A DNA stretch of 64,000 nt from Actinomycetota bacterium (GTDB taxonomy: Bacteria > Actinomycetota > Actinomycetes > JACCUZ01). Positions within the stretch are counted from its first letter, which is position 1, and each line of letters starts with the position of its first letter. The notes under the pieces are model-generated. The model searched no databases and had not been told where the DNA came from. It saw only the letters and a program-made list of their open reading frames with translations. Below are positions 49,562 through 62,138 of this stretch, piece after piece. The stretch covers positions 1 to 64,000 of the forward strand of contig JAVEDI010000038.1 of the NCBI GenBank assembly GCA_030841035.1, in the 5' to 3' direction. Made by a program: the position numbers and the translations under genes.

Positions 49562-51247
49562 GTGGACGCTGAGCAGATCCGAGCCGGGCGTGATCGTTGG
49601 CAGGCGCGCTTCACCGCGGCGCAGCGGGCGGGGCGGGTGGCTGACCGGGACTTCACGACGCTCTCCGGTGAGGCGGTGGCGCCGGTCTACGGGCCGGCGG
49701 ACGGGGAGAGCGTCGCGGGGTTCGAGCGGATCGGGTGGCCGGGGGAGTTCCCGTTCACGCGCGGGCTGCATCCCACCGGCTACCGCGGGCGGACGTGGAC
49801 GATCCGGCAGTTCGCCGGGTTCGGCAGCGCGGCGCAGACCAACGCGCGCTACAAGATGATCCTGGGCGCCGGTGGCGGGGGGCTGTCCGTGGCGTTCGAC
49901 ATGCCGACCCTGATGGGCCGCGACTCCGATGACCCGCGGTCGCTGGGGGAGGTGGGTCACTGCGGGGTGGCGATCGACTCGGCGGCTGACATGCAGGTGC
50001 TCTTCGACGGGATCCCGCTCGGTGAGGTGACGACCTCGATGACGATCAGCGGCCCCGCCGTACCCGTGTTCTGCATGTATCTGGTGGCCGCCGAGCGGCA
50101 GGGCGTCGACCCGGGCGTGCTGAACGGGACGTTGCAGACCGACATCTTCAAGGAGTACATCGCGCAGAAGGAGTGGCTGTTCCCGCCGGCGCCGCACCTG
50201 CGGCTGATCGGTGACCTGATGCAGTACTGCGTGGAGGGGATCCCGGACTACAAGCCGTTGTCGGTGTCCGGCTACCACATCCGGGAGGCCGGTTCGACGG
50301 CCGCCCAGGAGCTGGCGTTCACGTTGGCCGACGGTTTCGGTTATGTGGAGCTGGGCTTGGCGCGGGGTCTGGACGTGGACGAGTTCGCGCCGGGCTTGTC
50401 GTTCTTCTTCGACGCGCACCTGGACTTCTTCGAGGAGATCGCGAAGTTCCGGGCGGCGCGGCGGATCTGGGCGCGGTGGATGCGTGACGTCTACGGGGCG
50501 CGTAGCGAGAAGGCGCAGTGGCTGCGGTTCCACACCCAGACCGCGGGGGTGTCGTTGACGGCGCAGCAGCCGGACAACAACATCGTGCGTACGGCGCTGG
50601 AGGCGCTCTCGGCGGTGCTGGGCGGGACGAACTCGTTGCACACCAACGCGCTGGACGAGGTGCTGGCGCTGCCGAGCGAGAAGGCGGCGGAGATCGCGGT
50701 GCGCACCCAGCAGGTGATCATGGAGGAGACCGGCGTGGCCAACGTCGCCGACCCGCTGGGCGGGTCGTGGTACGTCGAGGCGCTGACCGACCGGATCGAG
50801 GCCGAGGCGGAGGCGGTGTTCGCGCGGATCCTGGCGATGGGCTCCGACGGGTCGATGACCTCGGGGATCCTGCGCGGGATCGAGGACGGCTGGTTCATGT
50901 CCGAGATCGCCGAGGCGGCGTTCACCTACCAGACCGCGCTGGAGAAGGGCGAGAAGAAGATCGTCGGCGTCAACTGCCATACGAGCACCGTGGAGGAGCC
51001 GTTGGAGATCCTGCGGGTCTCCCACGAGGTGGAGCGCGAGCAGAGGCGGGTGCTCGCCCAGCGCCGGGCCGCCCGTGACGGGGCGGCGGTCGAGGCGGCC
51101 CTGCACCGGCTGGTCCAGGTTGCGCGGACCGAGGCCACCATGGTGCCCGCGATGCTCGACGCGGCCCGGGCCGAGGCCACCCTCGGCGAGATCTGCGGCG
51201 CCCTCAAGGCCGAATGGGGCGACTACCGGGAGCCCGCCCGGTTCTGA
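49562..51247 (+). CDS. icmA: Isobutyryl-CoA mutase large subunit
   Basis: Interconverts isobutyryl-CoA and n-butyryl-CoA with adenosylcobalamin. The 561-residue substrate barrel lacks a B12 domain, so a separate small subunit (IcmB) is needed; none is encoded in this window. Two residues set the substrate: F84 (TIRQFAGF) and Q202 (EYIAQKEW), where methylmalonyl-CoA mutase has Tyr and Arg. This pair is the known Icm signature and excludes a dicarboxylic substrate. GTG 49562 follows GAGGAG. Butyryl-CoA links it to the ccr pathway and to valine breakdown. Confidence 0.92.
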
Positions 51248-52259: not shown

Positions 52260-52495
52260 CGCGCCACCGACGGCCGAGCGGCCGCGTCACGCGGCGGACG
52301 ACGCCGCGTCTCGCCGTCCCGGTGCGTGTCGCGCGCGTATAGCGCGCGTTGCCCGGATGTGGACGGCGTCGGGAGGCGCGGCGTCCGACGTTAACCGCAC
52401 GTGAAAAGTCCGTTGCGTTCGCCTACGACCCCTTGTGCCTGACTCGAGCCTGGGCGGAAATGGAGGTGCTCCCCACCCCCCTCCGAGGAGAGCCC

Positions 52496-53320
52496 GTGAA
52501 GCTCGACATCGTCATCCCGGCTCACAACGAACAACACCGCATCGACACCACCCTCGCCGACTACCGGGCCGCCTGCACCTCCGCGGACACCCGCTTCCTC
52601 GTTGCGCTCGACGACTGCACCGATGACACCGCAGCAGTGGTCGCCTGGCACGCCGACCAGGACGCGCGCGTCGTCGCGCGGCCGTATCCGCGGCTCGGGA
52701 AGGGCGGCGTGCTCCTCGAGACGTTCCGCTGGTCCAGGGCCGACCTGGTGGCGTTCGTCGACGCCGACTGCGCCACCCCACCCGCCGAGCTGCTGCGCCT
52801 CATCGAGGTGCTCGACCAGCTGGAGGCCGACATCGTGATCGCCTCCCGCTGGCACCCGACGTCGGTGCTGCCCGTGCAGCGCAGCATCGGCCGCCGGTTG
52901 GCGAGCGCCGGGTTCTCGCTCGCCGTACGTCGGATATTCCGGCTGCCGTTCCGCGACACCCAGTGCGGCGCCAAGGTCGTGCGACGCACGACCGCCGAAC
53001 GTGTCGTACCGCTGCTGTCCTCGCGCGACTTCGTCTTCGACGTCGACCTGCTGCTGACCGCGCGCAGCCTCGGGTTCCGCATCGCCGACGTCCCGACGAT
53101 CTGGATCGACCGGGCCGGCTCCCGGGTGCGCCCGCTCGCGGACTCCGGTCGGATGGCCGCCTCGCTCGCCCGGTTGTGGCTGCACCACCGGGTCGTGCCG
53201 GTGCGGATGCCGGCCAGCCCCATCTTCGCCGACGCGGGCGGTGCTCCGTCGCTGCAGCGCGTCATCGACCTCACCGGGCGCGAGCGCGTGACGGCTGCGG
53301 AGGGCACCTATGCGGCCTGA
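52496..53320 (+). CDS. Family 2 glycosyltransferase, polyprenyl-phosphate sugar synthase-like
   Basis: First gene of the exopolysaccharide operon. The 274-residue GT-A enzyme has VIPAHNEQHRI at the start, acidic DDCTDD (39-44) and the metal motif DAD (89-91). The layout resembles dolichyl-phosphate glucose/mannose synthases (RLGKGGVLLE matches their Gly-Lys loop), so it probably makes the lipid-linked sugar used by the GT-C enzyme of the operon; this is inference. No membrane helices are seen. GTG 52496 follows GAGGAG. The 236-bp region upstream (52260-52495) holds no gene. Confidence 0.85.
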   Translation: MKLDIVIPAHNEQHRIDTTLADYRAACTSADTRFLVALDDCTDDTAAVVAWHADQDARVVARPYPRLGKGGVLLETFRWSRADLVAFVDADCATPPAELLRLIEVLDQLEADIVIASRWHPTSVLPVQRSIGRRLASAGFSLAVRRIFRLPFRDTQCGAKVVRRTTAERVVPLLSSRDFVFDVDLLLTARSLGFRIADVPTIWIDRAGSRVRPLADSGRMAASLARLWLHHRVVPVRMPASPIFADAGGAPSLQRVIDLTGRERVTAAEGTYAA

Positions 53321-54515
53321 CGTCACCCTCGTCAGCCCTTATCCCGCAACAGGAACCCGGCACAGCGGCGTCAGCGGCGTCGCGTCGTACACCGCCAACC
53401 TCGCACACGGCCTGCACGACAACGGAGCAGCGGTGACGATCGTCGCACCGCACGAGACGGGGCAGCCACACGACTCGTGGGACGGCCCGGTCCGGGTGCT
53501 GCGGCGCTTCGGCCGCGGAGCGGCAGCGGTGCCTGCGGCCCTGGCCGCAGCTCGGCGGACGGGTGCCGGTGTCGTGCACCTGCAGCACGAGCTGTTCCTG
53601 TACGGCGGACCCGCGGGTCTGCCGCGCCAGCTGCTGGCGCTGCGCCGTCCCGGACCGCCGACGGTGCTCACGATGCACCAGGTCGTCGACCCCGTCACGG
53701 TCGACCGGCACTACACGCGGCTGCACCGGCTGCAGGTCCCACCGGTCGCGGCCCGTGCCGCGCTGGCTGTCCTGCAGCACACCCTGCCGCGGCTGGCCGA
53801 CGCGACCGTCGTCCACGAGGAGGCGTTCCGCCGGGTCGTCCCCGCGGCGGTCAGCCTCCCGCACGGCATCGAGACACCGGCGCTCGACCGGGGCGCGGCA
53901 GCGGCGGCCCGACGGACCCTGGGGTTGCCGCAGGACCGGCTCGTCGTGCTGTGCTTCGGGTTCCTGGCCCCGTACAAGGGCCTGGAGACCGCGCTCGAGG
54001 CGGCCGGTCTCGCCGGACCTCGGGTACTGCTGGTCGTCGCCGGAGGGGACCACCCGCGACTCGCGGAGCAGCGCGACACCTACGGTCTGATGCTGCGCCG
54101 GACCTACGGTGACATCGCGCGGTTCACCGGCTACGTCCCCGACCGCGATGTCTCCTCGTGGTTCCTCGCGGCCGACGTGGCGGCCTTCCCCTACCCCAGC
54201 CCGCACGCCGCGAGCGGCGCTCTGGCACTCGCACTCGCCCACCGCACCCCTGCCCTGCTGTCCCCGGAGCTGGCGCGCACCGCGGCGGCGCCGGCCGTGC
54301 TGGCCGTTCCCGGCGGCGCGGCCGGCCTGGCCGCCCGGCTGCTGCGGCTCGCGAGCGAGCCGGCGCAGCTCGACCGGCTCCGCAGCGCCACTGCAGCGAT
54401 GGCGGACGGCCGCTCCTGGCCCGCCGTGGCCCGCCGGCACCTCGACCTCTATGAAGGGCTCATCCGTGACCAGAATCCTGCTCGTCGGCGCCTTCGGTCA
54501 GCGCAACCCGGGTGA
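53310..54515 (+). CDS. Family 4-like glycosyltransferase (GT-B)
   Basis: The 401-residue GT-B enzyme starts 11 bases inside the preceding gene. The acceptor domain has SGVSGVASYTANLAHGL, a GT4-like start; the donor domain has VLCFGFLAPYKGLETALEA with the phosphate-binding Lys. The usual E-x7-E signature is degenerate (SPHAASGALALALA lacks both glutamates), so donor binding may differ or activity may be reduced. It is expected to add a sugar to a lipid-linked intermediate at the cytoplasmic face. Confidence 0.85.
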   Translation: MRPDVTLVSPYPATGTRHSGVSGVASYTANLAHGLHDNGAAVTIVAPHETGQPHDSWDGPVRVLRRFGRGAAAVPAALAAARRTGAGVVHLQHELFLYGGPAGLPRQLLALRRPGPPTVLTMHQVVDPVTVDRHYTRLHRLQVPPVAARAALAVLQHTLPRLADATVVHEEAFRRVVPAAVSLPHGIETPALDRGAAAAARRTLGLPQDRLVVLCFGFLAPYKGLETALEAAGLAGPRVLLVVAGGDHPRLAEQRDTYGLMLRRTYGDIARFTGYVPDRDVSSWFLAADVAAFPYPSPHAASGALALALAHRTPALLSPELARTAAAPAVLAVPGGAAGLAARLLRLASEPAQLDRLRSATAAMADGRSWPAVARRHLDLYEGLIRDQNPARRRLRSAQPG

Positions 54516-55596
54516 CGAAGCCCTGCTCGAAGCCTTCCTGCTTGCTCTGCACGGCTTCGAGGTGACGGTCGCGTCCAGCGATCCCGTCCTCACCAGCTCC
54601 CAGCACGGCGTGCGTGCGGTGCGCAGCACCGCAGCGGCCACCGGCCGTGCCCTGCTCGACGCCGACGCCCTCGTGTACGGCGGTGGCACGATCTTCAAGG
54701 CTCTCGATGCCGCCACCGGCCGGCCGCCGAGGGCGTTGCTGCGCAATGCGCTGCTGCTGGCGCGGGCCGCCCGGGCGCTGGGCCGGCCGGTCGCGATGGT
54801 GGGCGCGGGCGCGGCCCCGCTGCCCGACCGCGCCTCGATGGTGCTCGCCGGCCAGCTGGCCCGCGCGGCCGACCTGCTGGTGCTGCGCGACGACGAGTCC
54901 GCGACCATCCTGGCGGCCGCCGGCGCTCCGGTGCCGCTGCGGGTGGGCGCCGACCCGGTGTGGACGCTGCTCGACGAACCGCCGCAGCCCACCGCGCGCG
55001 GCGACGACCTGCTCGTCGCCCTCTCGACGTACGCCGTCGGCGGCGCCCGCTGCGCCGCAGACCTGGCCGACGTGCTCGCCGTTGCCGTCCGTTCGGTTCC
55101 CGACCTCGGGAAGATCCGGCTGCAGCCCTGGCAGACGGGGCAGCGCGGCTGCGATGACTTCGACCTGGCCCGGCTGGTCGCCGCGCGGCTCACCGATCTG
55201 GGGTCGCGGGTGGTCGTGGAGGTGCCACCGCCGTCGGTTCGCGTCGCTCGCGACGGGATGCGTTCGGCCGGCATGGTGCTCTCGATGCGGATGCACGGCC
55301 TGGTCGCGGCGGGCGCGGCCGGCAGCCCTGTCGTGGCCCTGGCCCACGAACCGAAGCTCGGTGCCCTCGCCCGACGACTCGGGCAGGAGGCGGTTCCTGG
55401 GGACGCCACGGGTGAGCAGATCGCGGCGGCCGCGCAACGGGCCCGCGCCGGTGGCGGCGTGAGTCCCGGTGCGGTGCGCGCCGAGATCGCCGCCGCGGCG
55501 GCCACCATGCGGCTGCTGCGCATGCTCCTGACGGGCGGCGAGGAGTCCGCCGGCGTCGACGGGCTGTCGCTGCAGCCCGCGGGGGTCCTGCGATGA
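54466..55596 (+). CDS. Polysaccharide pyruvyltransferase family protein (CsaB-like)
   Basis: Transfers pyruvate from PEP to a sugar as a ketal, adding negative charge to the glycan. The 376-residue protein has the family start VGAFGQRNPGDEALLEAF, YGGGTIFK and the C-terminal MRMHGLVAAGAAGSPVVAL. GTG 54466 follows AAGGG by seven bases; it lies 50 bases inside the preceding glycosyltransferase gene. ATG 54451 is in frame but lacks a site. Confidence 0.88.
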   Translation: MTRILLVGAFGQRNPGDEALLEAFLLALHGFEVTVASSDPVLTSSQHGVRAVRSTAAATGRALLDADALVYGGGTIFKALDAATGRPPRALLRNALLLARAARALGRPVAMVGAGAAPLPDRASMVLAGQLARAADLLVLRDDESATILAAAGAPVPLRVGADPVWTLLDEPPQPTARGDDLLVALSTYAVGGARCAADLADVLAVAVRSVPDLGKIRLQPWQTGQRGCDDFDLARLVAARLTDLGSRVVVEVPPPSVRVARDGMRSAGMVLSMRMHGLVAAGAAGSPVVALAHEPKLGALARRLGQEAVPGDATGEQIAAAAQRARAGGGVSPGAVRAEIAAAAATMRLLRMLLTGGEESAGVDGLSLQPAGVLR

Positions 55597-58370
55597 ACCA
55601 GACGCTCGCCAGCGGCGAGGCGGCCACCGGGACAGGGCCGTCGACACCCGACATCAGGGCGGTGCAGGGTCGAGGTCGCCAGGCCCTGCGCCAGGGCGGT
55701 GTCCTCGTCGCGCAGCTCAGCGCCGGCGTCGGCAACCTGGCCTTCCTCCTGGTGTCGGCGCACCTGCTCCCACCCGGACAGTTCGCCCAGCTCGCCGCGT
55801 TCCTGGCCGTGTACCTGCTCCTGCACACGGTGGCGGCCGCCGCGGCTCCCGCCGTGGCGCTCGATCCCGGCCTCGAGGCCCGGCTGCGCTCACAGGCGCT
55901 GGCCACGGGCCTCGGTCTCGGGACGGCTGTGGCCCTGACCGCGTCGTGGACGAGCGAGGTCACCGGGTTGTCGGTGACCACCCTGCTGGCGCTCGGCGCT
56001 GCCGCGCCGGGTGCCACGCTGCTCGCGCTCGCCCGTGGTCGGCTCTACGGAGAGGAGCGCGGGGCAGCCGTGGCGGTGACGCTGCTCACCGAGCCGCTCG
56101 CAAGGGTGCTGTTCGGCATCGGGCTGGCTGTGCTGCTGCGGCCGCAGACCGCCGTGTGGGGTGTCGTCGCGGCCGGTTACGCGGCCCTCGCGGTCGCCGT
56201 CCTCACCGCTCGTGCACCGGCGCCGCCCGGCTCCGGTGCACGACCGCAGCTGTCCCCGGGCCTGCCGGCCCTCACCGCCGCCACGCTGCTCGGCGTCGCG
56301 GTCGTCGGCAGCCAGGACGTGATCTTCGCCAACCGGCTGCTGCCCGATGCGTCGGGCGCGCTGTTCGCGGCCGTCTCGACGTTGGGCGCCATGGTGTTCT
56401 TCGCCACCTCGACCGTGCCGCTGGTGATGCTGCCGCAGGCGGTACGGCGCGATCCCGGTGCGCTGTTGACCGCCACGTCGTTGACCGGCGGGCTCAGCGC
56501 GCTCGCGGTGGCGGCCCTGTCGTTCGCCCCCGCCTCGCTCTACGGGCTGCTGCTCGGCGAGCGCTACATCGCGGCGCACGAGCTGGCCGTCCCCTACCTG
56601 TGCGCGATGGCGGCGCTCGGCCTCAGCCGGGTGCTACTGGCCCACCTGTGCGCTACGGGGTCGGGCCGGCGGGCGTTCGCCATCACGCTGCTGGCGGTGG
56701 CCCTCCAGGCGGTCCTCGTGGTGATGGCAGGGTCGGCGGCCGAGGTGGTCACCGCCACCACGGTTGCGTCCTGCGCCCTGCTGGTGTCGGCCGTGGCCGC
56801 CGTCATGCTTCGTACGCCGGTGGTGCTGCCCGAAACGGTGGCTGCGCCTGTCGACATACCCGGGATCGGGGGCGGAGCGCACAGGGCGGCACGTCTCCTG
56901 TCGTGGCGGCGGAGGCTGGGCGCCGCGCTGCCGCTGGCGACGATCATCCTCGTGGCTGTCGCGCTGCGCGCCTACGTCACCCGCAGCGTGTGGATCGACG
57001 AGGCGATCAGCATCCGGCAGGCGAGCCAGCCCTACGGCGCGATGCTCTCCCAGCTGGCGGCCAACGACGTGCATCCGCCGCTCTACCACTCGCTGCTGTG
57101 GGCGGTCGTGCACCTGAGCGGCAGCGACGGTGAGGCTGTTGTCCGGCTGCCGTCCATGGTCGTCGGGACGCTTCTCGTGCCGGTCTTCTTCGTCGTCGCC
57201 CGAGACCTGTGGGACCGGCGCACGGGGCTCGTCGCGGCGGTGGTGGTTGCGGTGGCACCGGTGGCGGTGTGGTACTCCCAGGAGGCGCGGATGTACGCGC
57301 TGTGGATGCTCTTGGCGACGCTGCTGATCTGGCTGCAGGCGAAGCTGTGGCGCGGAGACCGCGGCTGGCGGCTGTGGGCCGGTCTCGCGCTCGCCGGAGC
57401 CGCCAGTCTGTGGACCCAGTGGTTCGCGGTGCTCCCGCTCGCCGTCGGCTACCTGGTGCTGCTCGGGCACGCTCTCGCCCGGTGGCGGGCGGGAGACGGT
57501 CCGCGCCGGCTGCTGGCCCTGCTCACCAGCGCGAGCGCCACCGTGGCGCTGGTGCTGCCGATCGTTCCTATCGGCCTCGCGCAGGCGGAGCGGGTGCTGG
57601 GTGGGGCCAGCGCAGGGTCCGGGGCGGCGGGGCAGACGGGGTCGGCAGCGTCGCAGGCGGTAGCCGGTGCACCCGACGTCTACGCCGCGCTCGCGAACGT
57701 GATCTGGGCGGTGTGGGGCTACCACTCAGACGAGCAGATGGTGCTGCTGTCGGCCCTGTGGCCGGTCATCGCGCTGCTGGCGCTGGCGCTGCTCGGCCGC
57801 GGCCGCTCACGGGAGGTGACGTTGCTCGTCGCGGTCGCCGGGGTGCCGTTCCTGGTGATGTTCGCGCTCGGGTTCGTGCAGCGCAACTTCTTCGAGCTGC
57901 GTTACTTCACGGCCACCGTGCCGGCCCTGCTGCTGCTCCTCGCCCGGCTCTCGGCGACATGGGGGCGCAGTCGGCTGACCGCGGCGGCCTTGCCCGCGCT
58001 GCTCGTGGTGTCGATGGCGGCGGGTCTGGTCGACCAGCAGGTCAACCGCTCCAATCCGCGCATCTACGACTTCCGCGGAGCCATTACGTGGGCCGCGGAC
58101 CGCGGCGAGGGCGACGACCTGCTGTTGTTCGCGCCGTCGTGGCTGTCCGACGAGCTCCACTACTACTCACCGGGGATGCGTACCCGAGCGATCCATGGAC
58201 CCGTCGCGCCACCGTCGGACGGCACCCGCGTGTTCGTCCTCGGCAGCTTCCTCGACGACCCGGCCACGAGCGGCGCCGTCGGCGACGTGCTGGCCCAGCT
58301 GAGGAACGCGGGCGCACGGCTGGTTGCGCGCCACAAGGTGGCCAACGTCGAGGTCTGGGAGTTCGCGTGA
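55593..58370 (+). CDS. Flippase-glycosyltransferase fusion (Wzx/MATE-like + GT-C)
   Basis: One uninterrupted 925-residue membrane protein. Residues about 30-415 have about 12 helices and resemble polysaccharide flippases (LVAQLSAGVGNLAFLLVSAHLL, then RLYGEERGAA). After a linker near 415-445 comes a GT39/PMT-like GT-C enzyme with the catalytic acidic pair in the first outer loop (WIDEAIS, D469-E470), VHPPLYHSLLW (from V493) and a periplasmic tail. It could move a lipid-linked sugar outward and use it at once. ATGA overlaps the upstream stop. Other flippases and GT-C enzymes are normally separate. Confidence 0.88.
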   Translation: MNQTLASGEAATGTGPSTPDIRAVQGRGRQALRQGGVLVAQLSAGVGNLAFLLVSAHLLPPGQFAQLAAFLAVYLLLHTVAAAAAPAVALDPGLEARLRSQALATGLGLGTAVALTASWTSEVTGLSVTTLLALGAAAPGATLLALARGRLYGEERGAAVAVTLLTEPLARVLFGIGLAVLLRPQTAVWGVVAAGYAALAVAVLTARAPAPPGSGARPQLSPGLPALTAATLLGVAVVGSQDVIFANRLLPDASGALFAAVSTLGAMVFFATSTVPLVMLPQAVRRDPGALLTATSLTGGLSALAVAALSFAPASLYGLLLGERYIAAHELAVPYLCAMAALGLSRVLLAHLCATGSGRRAFAITLLAVALQAVLVVMAGSAAEVVTATTVASCALLVSAVAAVMLRTPVVLPETVAAPVDIPGIGGGAHRAARLLSWRRRLGAALPLATIILVAVALRAYVTRSVWIDEAISIRQASQPYGAMLSQLAANDVHPPLYHSLLWAVVHLSGSDGEAVVRLPSMVVGTLLVPVFFVVARDLWDRRTGLVAAVVVAVAPVAVWYSQEARMYALWMLLATLLIWLQAKLWRGDRGWRLWAGLALAGAASLWTQWFAVLPLAVGYLVLLGHALARWRAGDGPRRLLALLTSASATVALVLPIVPIGLAQAERVLGGASAGSGAAGQTGSAASQAVAGAPDVYAALANVIWAVWGYHSDEQMVLLSALWPVIALLALALLGRGRSREVTLLVAVAGVPFLVMFALGFVQRNFFELRYFTATVPALLLLLARLSATWGRSRLTAAALPALLVVSMAAGLVDQQVNRSNPRIYDFRGAITWAADRGEGDDLLLFAPSWLSDELHYYSPGMRTRAIHGPVAPPSDGTRVFVLGSFLDDPATSGAVGDVLAQLRNAGARLVARHKVANVEVWEFA

Positions 58371-59959
58371 CCATGACCCGCACGGTCCTCGACCCCAGAG
58401 TCGCCGACCCGGCATGGGGCACCGCTCCGCTGGGAACTCGTACGCCACGGCACCTGCGGCTGCTGCTCACCCTGAACCTGCTCGCGACGTCGTGGTACTT
58501 CGGCTGGCTCCTGGACCCCGCGCGAGTGGGCAACCCGGGGCTGTACGCGGTCCTCGTGGTGGCCGAGGGCCTCAACCTGGTGCAGGCACTGGGCTTCTGG
58601 TGGACCCTGGCCGGGGAGCGCCGCTTCGCTCGTGGGCGGCCCGGCTCGTCGGCGGGCGGCCCGGCAGCGGTCGAGCGCCCGTCGGTGGACGTGCTCGTCC
58701 CTCGCTACTCCGAACCGGTCGAGATCGTCGAGCCGACTCTCGCGGCCGCTGTGCGGCTGCGCGGTGGCGACGTACGCGTGTGGTTGCTCGACGACGGTGA
58801 CAGCGACGAGATGGCCGCGCTGGCGAAGCGGGTCGGCGCGGGCTACCTGCGCCGCCACGAGCACACCGGCGCGAAGGCGGGCAACATCAACGCCGCACTG
58901 GCTCGCACGTCGGGCGAGTACGTGCTCGTGCTCGACTGCGACCACGTGCCGCACCCCGACTTCCTGGTGCGCACGCTGCCGGCGATGGCCGACCCGCACG
59001 TGGCGTTCGTGCAGACCCCCCAGCACTACGCCAACTCCACCGGCAACCCGGTGGCCGCGGCGGCGTGGAGTCAGCAGGCGCTGTTCTTCGGTTGCATCGC
59101 GCGGGGCAAGAACGTGCGCGGGGCGATGTTCTGCTGCGGGACCAACGTGGTGTTCCGGCGTGCGGCGCTCGACGACGTGGACGGCTTCCCGGAGGACTCG
59201 GTGACCGAGGACTTCCTGCTCTCCGTGCGGCTGCAGGAACGTGGCTGGCGCACCGAGTACGTCGCCGAGGTGCTGGCCCAGGGGCTCGGCCCGGAGGACA
59301 TGGCCAGCTACGCGAGCCAGCAGCTGCGCTGGGCGCGTGGCTGCCTGTCGGCGATCCCGACCACGTTGCGCTCGAACCTGTCCCCGAGGCTGAAGGCGCA
59401 GTACCTGCTCTCGAGCGCCTACTTCCTCTCGGGCTGGACCGTGGTGGTCTACATGATGCTGCCGGTCTCGCGGATCCTGCTGGGGGCTCAGCCGCTTGCG
59501 GTGTCCGGGGCCGACCAGTTCCTCGCTCACTTCGCGCCCTACTTCGCGCTGTCGCTGTTGACCGTCGCGGTGGCGGGCGCGGGTCGATACACCTTCGCGG
59601 CGTACTCCATGGCAGCGGCTGGTTTCTGGATCCACGTCTCGGCCTCGCTCGCCGTGCTGCTGCGCCGGCGCGGCCGCTTCGTCGTCACGCCCAAGAGCGG
59701 CTCGGTCGGCTGGCAGCCACGGGCCGTGTGGCCGGCGCTGGCGGCGATCGGGGTGCTGCTGGGGTCGTGCGCGGTCGGGCTGGCGCACGCCCGTGACGCC
59801 GCGATGCTCAACAACGTCACGTTCGCGTTGCTGCACGTCGTGGTGCTCACGAGCGGTGTGTCGGGCGCCCTGTCCCCGCAGTGGGCGAGGCGGTTGACCG
59901 CGCCGACCAGGACCGGGACGGCGGCCGAGCCGGCGGTCGAGCCGGTGGTGGTGCCCTAG
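58367..59959 (+). CDS. BcsA-like processive family 2 glycosyltransferase
   Basis: The 530-residue protein has two N-terminal helices (about 30-50, 58-80), a cytoplasmic GT-A domain and four to five C-terminal helices. The processive beta-glycan synthase motifs are complete: D142-D143, D190-x-D192, T280-E281-D282 and Q318-x-x-R-W (QQLRW). It would polymerise and export a beta-linked glucan or related glycan. There is no PilZ domain, so direct c-di-GMP control is not expected. GTG 58367 overlaps the upstream stop (GTGA); ATG 58373 is an alternative. Confidence 0.9.
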   Translation: MTMTRTVLDPRVADPAWGTAPLGTRTPRHLRLLLTLNLLATSWYFGWLLDPARVGNPGLYAVLVVAEGLNLVQALGFWWTLAGERRFARGRPGSSAGGPAAVERPSVDVLVPRYSEPVEIVEPTLAAAVRLRGGDVRVWLLDDGDSDEMAALAKRVGAGYLRRHEHTGAKAGNINAALARTSGEYVLVLDCDHVPHPDFLVRTLPAMADPHVAFVQTPQHYANSTGNPVAAAAWSQQALFFGCIARGKNVRGAMFCCGTNVVFRRAALDDVDGFPEDSVTEDFLLSVRLQERGWRTEYVAEVLAQGLGPEDMASYASQQLRWARGCLSAIPTTLRSNLSPRLKAQYLLSSAYFLSGWTVVVYMMLPVSRILLGAQPLAVSGADQFLAHFAPYFALSLLTVAVAGAGRYTFAAYSMAAAGFWIHVSASLAVLLRRRGRFVVTPKSGSVGWQPRAVWPALAAIGVLLGSCAVGLAHARDAAMLNNVTFALLHVVVLTSGVSGALSPQWARRLTAPTRTGTAAEPAVEPVVVP

Positions 59960-60945
59960 TGCCGGGCCATCGCCGGGGGGCCGGTCGGTCGGCGGTGCTG
60001 GCCCTGGCGGCCTCGGCAGCCCTGCTGCTGGTCGTCACGCCCCAGCCGTCGCAGGCCCCCGAGCGGGTCGCCTGGTCCAGCCCCTTGGCGCCCAGCCCGT
60101 TCGCCGGCGCACGGCTGTACGTCGACCCGGCGACCGCGGCCACCCGCGACCCGGTGCTCTCCAGGGTGACCGGCCGAGCGCAGGCCAGCTGGTTCGGTGA
60201 CTGGGTACCGACGGGCCGGCTCACCGCCGCGGTCTCCGACCTTGTCGGTCGCGCGGCGGCCGCAGGCGCGCTGCCGGTGCTGGTCGCCTACGACATTCCG
60301 CTTCGTGACTGCGGCTCCTACTCCCTCGGCGGCGCGAGCAGCTCGCGGGCCTACCGGGACTGGATCTCGGCGTTCGCGGCGGGCATCGGGCCGCAGCGCG
60401 CCGTCGTGGTGCTCGAGCCCGACGCGCTCGCGCAGATCGACTGCCTGTCGGCCGCGGACCGGGCGGCGCGTTACGACCTCCTGCGGTACGCGGTCAGGGT
60501 GCTGGACCGGCTGCCCGCGGTCGCGACGTACCTCGACGCCGGCCACAGCTCGTGGGTGCCCACCGCGGAGATGGCCGCTCGGCTGGTCCGCGCGGGTGTC
60601 GTGGCGACGCGTGGCTTCGCGCTGAACGTCTCGAACTTCCAGTGGACGACGGACGAGCTGCGCTACGGCCGGTCGCTGTCCTCGCTGCTGGGCTGGAAGC
60701 GTTTCGTCGTCGACACCAGCCGCAACGGGCTCGGCCCGGCGCTGGGCCCGGACGGCTGGTGCAACCCGTCCGGTCGCGCGCTCGGGGCGCCGCCGCTGAC
60801 ACCGGTGAACGACCGGCTCGTCGACGCGCTGCTGTGGGTCAAGCGACCGGGCGAGTCGGACGGCTCCTGCGGGCGGGGCGATCCACCGGCGGGCGTGTCA
60901 TGGGCCGCCTACGCGCGCGGTCTCGCGCAGCGGTCGCTGTGGTGA
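59959..60945 (+). CDS. Glycoside hydrolase family 6 (endoglucanase/cellobiohydrolase)
   Basis: The 328-residue protein has a signal or membrane-anchor helix (about 11-27). The GH6 catalytic core shows YDIPLRDCG with catalytic acid D117, VLEPDALAQIDC, DAGHSSWVP and VDTSRNGLGP. Such enzymes cut beta-1,4-glucan. No cellulose-binding module is attached. Its gene begins on the last base of the synthase stop codon (TAGTG), so synthase and hydrolase are coupled, as with cslA and the GH6 cslZ of Streptomyces. A glycan-trimming rather than feeding role is inferred. Confidence 0.92.
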   Translation: MPGHRRGAGRSAVLALAASAALLLVVTPQPSQAPERVAWSSPLAPSPFAGARLYVDPATAATRDPVLSRVTGRAQASWFGDWVPTGRLTAAVSDLVGRAAAAGALPVLVAYDIPLRDCGSYSLGGASSSRAYRDWISAFAAGIGPQRAVVVLEPDALAQIDCLSAADRAARYDLLRYAVRVLDRLPAVATYLDAGHSSWVPTAEMAARLVRAGVVATRGFALNVSNFQWTTDELRYGRSLSSLLGWKRFVVDTSRNGLGPALGPDGWCNPSGRALGAPPLTPVNDRLVDALLWVKRPGESDGSCGRGDPPAGVSWAAYARGLAQRSLW

Positions 60946-62138
60946 GCACTCCTGCCACGGAGCAGCCGCGCTTCGAGCTGTTGGACGCGATCCGCTTCGC
61001 GGCGGCCTCGATGGTCGTCGCCTTCCACTACCTGTTCAACGGCGTCGCGGGCGGGAAGGTCACGTCGCTGACGCTGGACGGTCCACCGCTGGACGTGGCG
61101 CCCGGCGTGGTGAAGTACGGCTATCTCGGGGTCCCGCTGTTCTTCCTCGTCAGCGGCTTCGTCATCACCCGGTCCACGCGCGGCCGGTCTGCCGACCGGT
61201 TCGTCGTCGGCCGAGCGCTGCGGCTGCTGCCGGCTTACTGGTGCGGCGTACTCATCACGTCGACGGTCGCCGTGTGGCTCGGCGGCCAGGTCGTCCACGT
61301 CGACGTACCGATGGTGCTCGCCAACCTCACCATGGTGCCGCCGCTGTTCGGACAGCCGTTCGTGGACGGGGTGTACTGGACGCTGCTGGTCGAGCTGCAG
61401 TTCTACCTGCTGGTGCTGGCGTTGTTGCAGGTCGGCAGGGGCAGGCTCGTCGAGCGGTTCGTGCCGTGGTGGGCCCTACTGATGCTCGGCGCGACGGCCG
61501 CGGGTGTCGGCCGGGTGCCCTATCTCGGTGGCTACATGGGTTTCTTCGCCGCCGGTGCTGTCCTCAGCACGCTGCAGCAACGGGGGGCGTACGCCGACGG
61601 GCGTGAGCGCCTCGTCCTGCTGGCGGGTCTGGCGGCGGCGTACTGCGTGGGCGTCCAGCACTGCGTCGTCGAGCTGCCGGCGCTGGAGGCGCAGCGGCAC
61701 ACGACGTATTCGGTGCCGGTGGTGGTCGCCCTCGTGACGGCGGGCCACCTGATGCTCGCGGCCTTCTGCGTGCCGCGCGTCGCGCGGCTGAGGGTGCCGG
61801 GAGCCCGGGCGCTCGGCTCCCTGACCTACCCGCTCTACCTGCTCCACGCGCACCTGGGCTACATGCTGCTCAACCGGTTCGCCCGCCCGGAGACCACGTG
61901 GTTCGTCTACCCGGCGTTGGTCGCGGGGATCCTTGCCCTGTCGGGTGCCGTGCACCTCGTCGTCGAGAAGCGGCTCGAGGCGGTCTGGCGTCGGCTCTTC
62001 GAGGCGACGCTGGGCGCCGGAATGCGAGCGGCGGCAGGTTCAGCGGCCACCTGTGTCCGCTCCTGGAGGTCGAGGCCCCACCCGTGGCTCTCCTCGAAGA
62101 CGCGCTCCTGCAGTCGCGCCGAGCCGAGCCGTCGGTAG
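60942..62138 (+). CDS. Membrane O-acyltransferase (acyltransferase 3 family)
   Basis: Adds acetyl or another acyl group to the glycan at the membrane. The 398-residue protein has about ten helices, the catalytic H29 in VVAFHYLF, and FFLVSGFVIT and RALRLLPAYW, as in OafA/YrhL proteins. The last 50 residues are a polar, Arg-rich tail. GTG 60942 overlaps the GH6 stop (GTGA). It is the last gene of the operon and ends 39 bases from the convergent glgB stop. Confidence 0.9.
   Translation: MSTPATEQPRFELLDAIRFAAASMVVAFHYLFNGVAGGKVTSLTLDGPPLDVAPGVVKYGYLGVPLFFLVSGFVITRSTRGRSADRFVVGRALRLLPAYWCGVLITSTVAVWLGGQVVHVDVPMVLANLTMVPPLFGQPFVDGVYWTLLVELQFYLLVLALLQVGRGRLVERFVPWWALLMLGATAAGVGRVPYLGGYMGFFAAGAVLSTLQQRGAYADGRERLVLLAGLAAAYCVGVQHCVVELPALEAQRHTTYSVPVVVALVTAGHLMLAAFCVPRVARLRVPGARALGSLTYPLYLLHAHLGYMLLNRFARPETTWFVYPALVAGILALSGAVHLVVEKRLEAVWRRLFEATLGAGMRAAAGSAATCVRSWRSRPHPWLSSKTRSCSRAEPSRR

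Follow-up and report, generated by a model that had tools for sequence, protein, structure and literature searches.

The 64,000-nucleotide stretch of actinomycetotal DNA analyzed here (the window) raises the question of whether a transporter for lipid-linked sugars has been joined naturally to a glycosyltransferase that would use them, and, if so, what such a protein might do. The original prediction described a single 925-residue frame uniting a Wzx/MATE-type transporter with a PMT/GT39-type enzyme, and we find this frame to be one intact gene (Table 1). It begins with ATG, is translated without interruption by stop codons, and overlaps both neighbors by four nucleotides: its start shares ATGA with the stop of the upstream gene, and its own stop shares GTGA with the GTG start of the downstream gene. 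A scan of genome contigs together with genome searches recovered homologues of approximately 38-51% identity, and in 17 loci besides the window both halves reside in one ORF. A sequencing or assembly artefact is ruled out, because these independent records carry the two halves as a continuous frame, and many genomes share the fusion instead of having two separate genes.

Table 1. Positions in the window of the fusion gene, its parts and the neighboring genes.
Feature	Position	Strand	Basis or remark
GT2 resembling polyprenyl-phosphate-sugar synthases	52349..53320 (start may be 52460)	+	PDB relatives ArnC, DPM synthase
GT4 glycosyltransferase	53310..54515	+	PF13439/PF00534; conserved neighbor
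CsaB-like polysaccharide pyruvyl transferase	54451..55596 (start uncertain)	+	PF04230, E 7e-21
Flippase-glycosyltransferase fusion gene	55593..58370	+	925 aa, single ORF; both halves in-frame in 17 other loci
N-half, predicted 12-helix MOP/Wzx-type flippase domain, residues ~21-407	55653..56813	+	AlphaFold2; Foldseek WzxE; hhalign
Linker, residues ~411-430	56823..56882	+	Low confidence; variable length; predicted cytoplasmic
C-half, PMT_2-type GT-C domain and C-terminal alpha/beta domain, residues ~429-925	56877..58367	+	PF13231; Foldseek
W467-x-D469-E470, invariant acidic pair after first GT-C helix	56991..57002	+	18/18 aligned sequences
Cellulose-synthase-like GT2	58367..59959 (GTG start, or ATG at 58373)	+	PDB BcsA, E 6e-50
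GH6 endoglucanase	59881..60945 (start may be 59995)	+	PF01341, E 7e-64; Cel6 cellulase structure 1uoz, E 5e-82
Acyltransferase family 3 membrane protein	60915..62138	+	PF01757, E 1.4e-29

The fused loci are spread over Actinomycetes, Acidimicrobiia and Thermoleophilia. They include Microlunatus endophyticus (Propionibacteriales; L013), Desertimonas flava (Acidimicrobiia; L021), a Thermoleophilaceae MAG (L014), and several Acidimicrobiales and Actinomycetes MAGs. Another comes from a MAG assigned to Acidobacteria (L019); since its GT-C domain clusters with those of actinobacteria, this MAG is possibly misbinned. Three additional loci (L022, L026, L028) are cut by contig ends. The fusion is uncommon. 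It or a contig-cut part was found in 3 of the 297 genomes sampled from the class besides the window's own (G271, G149, G023) and in 2 of 396 sampled from the phylum (E 1e-30), and it is absent from the sampled genus and family relatives of the window genome. Plasmids gave partial matches to GT39 genes only. Long frames at other GT-C hits (L005, L006, L009, L096, L109) had been candidates for extra fusions, and were resolved by gene calling into ordinary GT-C genes and their neighbors. Genome G000 carries five more PMT_2 proteins (C70:1420, C3:57909, C84:7490, C61:33051, C62:92375), whose frames of 525-591 aa are too short to accommodate a flippase half.

Direct sequence searches with the N-half returned no match in Pfam, NCBIfam or the PDB, and a Polysacc_synt or MATE match from Pfam is absent from the N-half of all 18 fusion sequences. 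Fold and profile comparisons were therefore used, and the proposed flippase role rests on these similarities. AlphaFold2, given an 18-row alignment, modelled the full chain with a pLDDT of 83 and a pTM of 0.70, and the N-half alone with a pLDDT of 87 and a pTM of 0.85. The 12 helices of the latter fall within the 12-14 typical of the MOP fold. Among PDB structures, the best Foldseek match of the N-half is WzxE (9g9p, E 6.5e-7, TM 0.69), and MATE and MurJ are matched as well. Moreover, its profile aligns by hhalign with five stand-alone Polysacc_synt-type flippase relatives (prob 99.2, E 1.2e-19); of the three that were scanned with Pfam, one exceeds the Polysacc_synt cut-off and two match the family below it. 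The N-half shares the fold, but only 16-20% sequence identity, with WzxE, a member of the MOP family that flips lipid III as a stand-alone protein (PMC11706664). The predicted Wzx/MATE-type identity is thus upheld by fold and profile, neither of which led to a non-transport family, although the direct Polysacc_synt/MATE match that had been anticipated was not obtained. We consider the N-half to be a probable Wzx/MOP-type flippase domain, which would move a lipid-linked sugar.

The C-half is recognizable by Pfam, with PMT_2 (PF13231) spanning residues 494-632 of the window protein at E 3.8e-11, a match that passes the curated cut-off, and present in 18 of 18 fusion homologues. The full chain also matches yeast and archaeal OST/STT3, Pmt4 and ArnT in the PDB (Foldseek), and weaker NCBIfam matches of the fusions are to Agl23, archaeal STT3 and the mycobacterial mannosyltransferase MT1671, the last in 16 of the 18 members. 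The expectation of a PMT/GT39-type enzyme is therefore confirmed. Like ArnT, Pmt4 and STT3, this half carries acidic residues after the first helix of the fold; none of those enzymes is known to have a MOP domain. Both D469 and E470 are invariant, as are W467, D492, H494 and the stretch W560-Y561-S562-Q563-E564. The modelled chain comprises 12 N-half helices and about 11 C-half helices, the latter assigned by hand from the model, and the mean number of K+R alternates broadly as expected, being high in predicted inner loops and low in outer loops. The linker, whose pLDDT is below 50 and whose length differs among the aligned sequences, averages 7.1 K+R. Helix count and alternating charge together place the linker inside and D469-E470 outside, and the acidic pair is thus predicted to lie in the first outer loop of the GT-C domain, facing outward as originally proposed.

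What such a protein would act upon is suggested by its neighbors. In nearly all loci with enough flanking sequence, the order is GT2, GT4, CsaB-like gene, fusion and cellulose-synthase-like GT2, and the cellulose-synthase-like gene follows the fusion in every locus whose contig continues. The best NCBIfam match of the first GT2 is AglJ, below the cut-off, and a DTQCGAK motif is found in 13 of 13 of these proteins; judged by sequence only, this gene would encode a polyprenyl-phosphate-sugar GT-A enzyme. The CsaB-like assignment extends to 10 of 11 aligned neighbors. The cellulose-synthase-like GT2 retains the TED, QxxRW and FxVTxK motifs, and no PilZ domain was found in it by Pfam. It matches TIGR03030 at E 1.9e-78, with 264 bits against the 699 required, and so misses the CelA equivalog cut-off. 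Among the 297 class genomes, the four that bear the fusion, and no others, have close forms of this protein (at least 58% identity). The next position is occupied by GH6 in the window, L013 and L119, and by GH8 in most loci (checked by Pfam in L014, L024 and L028, and assigned by clustering in the rest), while L015 has its GH6 gene, and L027 its GH8 gene, upstream instead. Because these two glucanase families are unrelated and fill the same place, they point to a beta-1,4-glucan product.

The acyltransferase family 3 gene is the probable last gene of the operon in the window, and no conserved neighbor of this kind was found at the other fusion loci. In some lineages, sulfotransferase-family genes lie in or beside the operon (L024:13530-14468, L025:6002-6976, L022:2978-4765), and the product could be sulfated there. 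Two genes that follow GH6 genes (L119:7854-9044 and L013:14806-16134) have similar N-termini and are without a Pfam match. Upstream of the operon, positions 49637-51244 of the window resemble by eye the large subunit of methylmalonyl-CoA mutase.

The GT-C halves of the fusions form one clade in a tree (support 100/100), which is neighbored with moderate support (88/65) by the group of the nearest unfused GT-C genes (L031, L032, L033, L035). Only a few bases downstream of each of these, a cellulose-synthase-like gene begins. Separate Polysacc_synt genes lie near the unfused GT-C genes of L031 and L035, the second of which also has a further GT2. Directly 3' of the stand-alone GT-C gene of L031, a 952-aa frame (L031:9557-12415) fuses the cellulose-synthase-like GT2 to GH26. 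In genome G088, a cellulose-synthase-like GT2 and a PMT_2 GT-C domain share one 1015-aa frame (L138:8308-11355, minus strand), adjoining an ArnC-like GT2 and a few kilobases from a GH26/malectin protein, although the long branch of this GT-C domain makes its tree position unsure. Since GH26 replaces GH6 or GH8 in two unfused loci and in G088, the polymer may differ at these sites. Operon and unfused relatives alike tie the GT-C domain to a cellulose-synthase-like enzyme; this context, which the original prediction left aside, is more informative than the gene in isolation.

Comparable divisions of labor are known. In three-component glycosylation, a GT-A enzyme loads a sugar onto polyprenyl phosphate, a flippase moves it, and a GT-C enzyme attaches it, outside the cell, to a surface polymer, as in CsbB/GtcA/YfhO and the Gac system of Streptococcus pyogenes, whose flippase GacK is of the Wzx type (PMC8035078). 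Those systems have separate flippase and GT-C proteins and a wall-polymer acceptor, whereas in the window the two form one chain within a cellulose-synthase-like operon; they share one ORF in 18 loci and are separate near the unfused genes of L031 and L035. For lipid-monophosphate sugars, most three-component systems rely on small transporters of the GtrA/SMR type. WzxE instead carries a lipid-diphosphate oligosaccharide, and the GT4 and CsaB-like genes may thus point to a larger substrate here. The GT136 system that adds pentofuranose side chains to the O1/O2 antigens of Citrobacter youngae after polymerization likewise employs a lipid-phosphate sugar synthase, a transporter and a GT-C enzyme, but with a small four-helix transporter, separate genes, a PRPP-derived donor and an O-antigen acceptor (PMC11127046). 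The succession of a cellulose-synthase-like GT2 and a beta-1,4-glucanase is shared with bacterial cellulose operons (BcsA with BcsZ, a GH8) and with Streptomyces CslA/GlxA (PMC11022532). Unlike those operons, that of the window includes lipid-linked glycosylation genes and a synthase without PilZ. We found no described case of a flippase-GT-C fusion, or of a GT-C enzyme acting on cellulose, in open-licence PMC papers, although the wider literature may differ; the original statement, that no characterized protein with these two domains was known, is in line with this.

The conserved operon context suggests a machine that transports sugars across the membrane and links them to a secreted glucan. 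The fusion probably serves in a lipid-linked glycosylation system as a bifunctional protein that unites flippase and transferase, with the adjacent cellulose-like glucan as the likeliest acceptor. A lipid-linked donor is indicated because the conserved first gene is an ArnC/DPM-synthase-like GT2 with the invariant motif. This GT2 (at 52349) would load a sugar onto polyprenyl phosphate on the cytoplasmic side, the GT4 enzyme might extend the lipid-linked sugar and the CsaB-like enzyme might pyruvylate it. The Wzx-type N-half would then flip it, and the GT-C half, with D469 and E470 in an outer active site, would transfer it to a beta-glucan that the neighboring synthase would make and extrude and GH6 or GH8 would trim. 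The glucan is favored as acceptor because the synthase gene accompanies the fusion at every continuing locus and co-occurs with it in the class, because the four closest unfused GT-C genes precede such a gene and G088 fuses the two, and because unrelated glucanases take the next position in different lineages. The fusion might also keep the lipid intermediate from being lost. The fuller proposal, a dedicated lipid-linked pathway by which cellulose, or a beta-glucan resembling it, would be glycosylated outside the cell during extrusion, with the donor passed directly within one chain, we put forward tentatively, at a little under an even chance.

Alternatively, the fusion might handle a lipid-diphosphate oligosaccharide repeat, combining a true Wzx with a GT-C half that polymerizes or ligates a different, pyruvylated polysaccharide, while the cellulose-like synthase makes another polymer. 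The WzxE-like fold and the conserved GT4 and pyruvyltransferase neighbors would fit this arrangement, but neither a Wzy polymerase nor a priming phosphoglycosyltransferase was found by Pfam among the seven operon proteins scanned. Furthermore, the GT-C gene pairs with a cellulose-synthase-like gene even where the arrangement of flippase, GT4 and CsaB differs, and in G088 is fused to it, and we therefore regard this explanation as unlikely. It is quite improbable that the MOP half is a lipid-binding or scaffold domain that places the GT-C domain beside the glucan synthase while another transporter flips the donor: the N-half is divergent and lacks a direct family match, but the full 12-helix fold is kept at high confidence in the model, and the polar residues Q41, R148, E167, R171 and R346 are invariant in the alignment. 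We likewise give little credence to glycosylation of proteins or a lipoglycan, with mere co-regulation of the cellulose-synthase-like gene, since PMT_2 enzymes do include protein mannosyltransferases and MT1671 is weakly matched, but adjacency that persists over several classes, also among unfused relatives and even within a single frame, exceeds the usual effect of co-regulation.

Direct hand-over from a flippase to an outer transferase is hard to study, as the parts are usually separate proteins. A conserved natural fusion therefore makes this hand-over testable in one polypeptide. Known modifications of cellulose include the addition of acetyl and phosphoethanolamine groups. If the acceptor is indeed the glucan of the neighboring enzyme, glycosylation by the fusion would represent a new way to modify a cellulose-type polymer.
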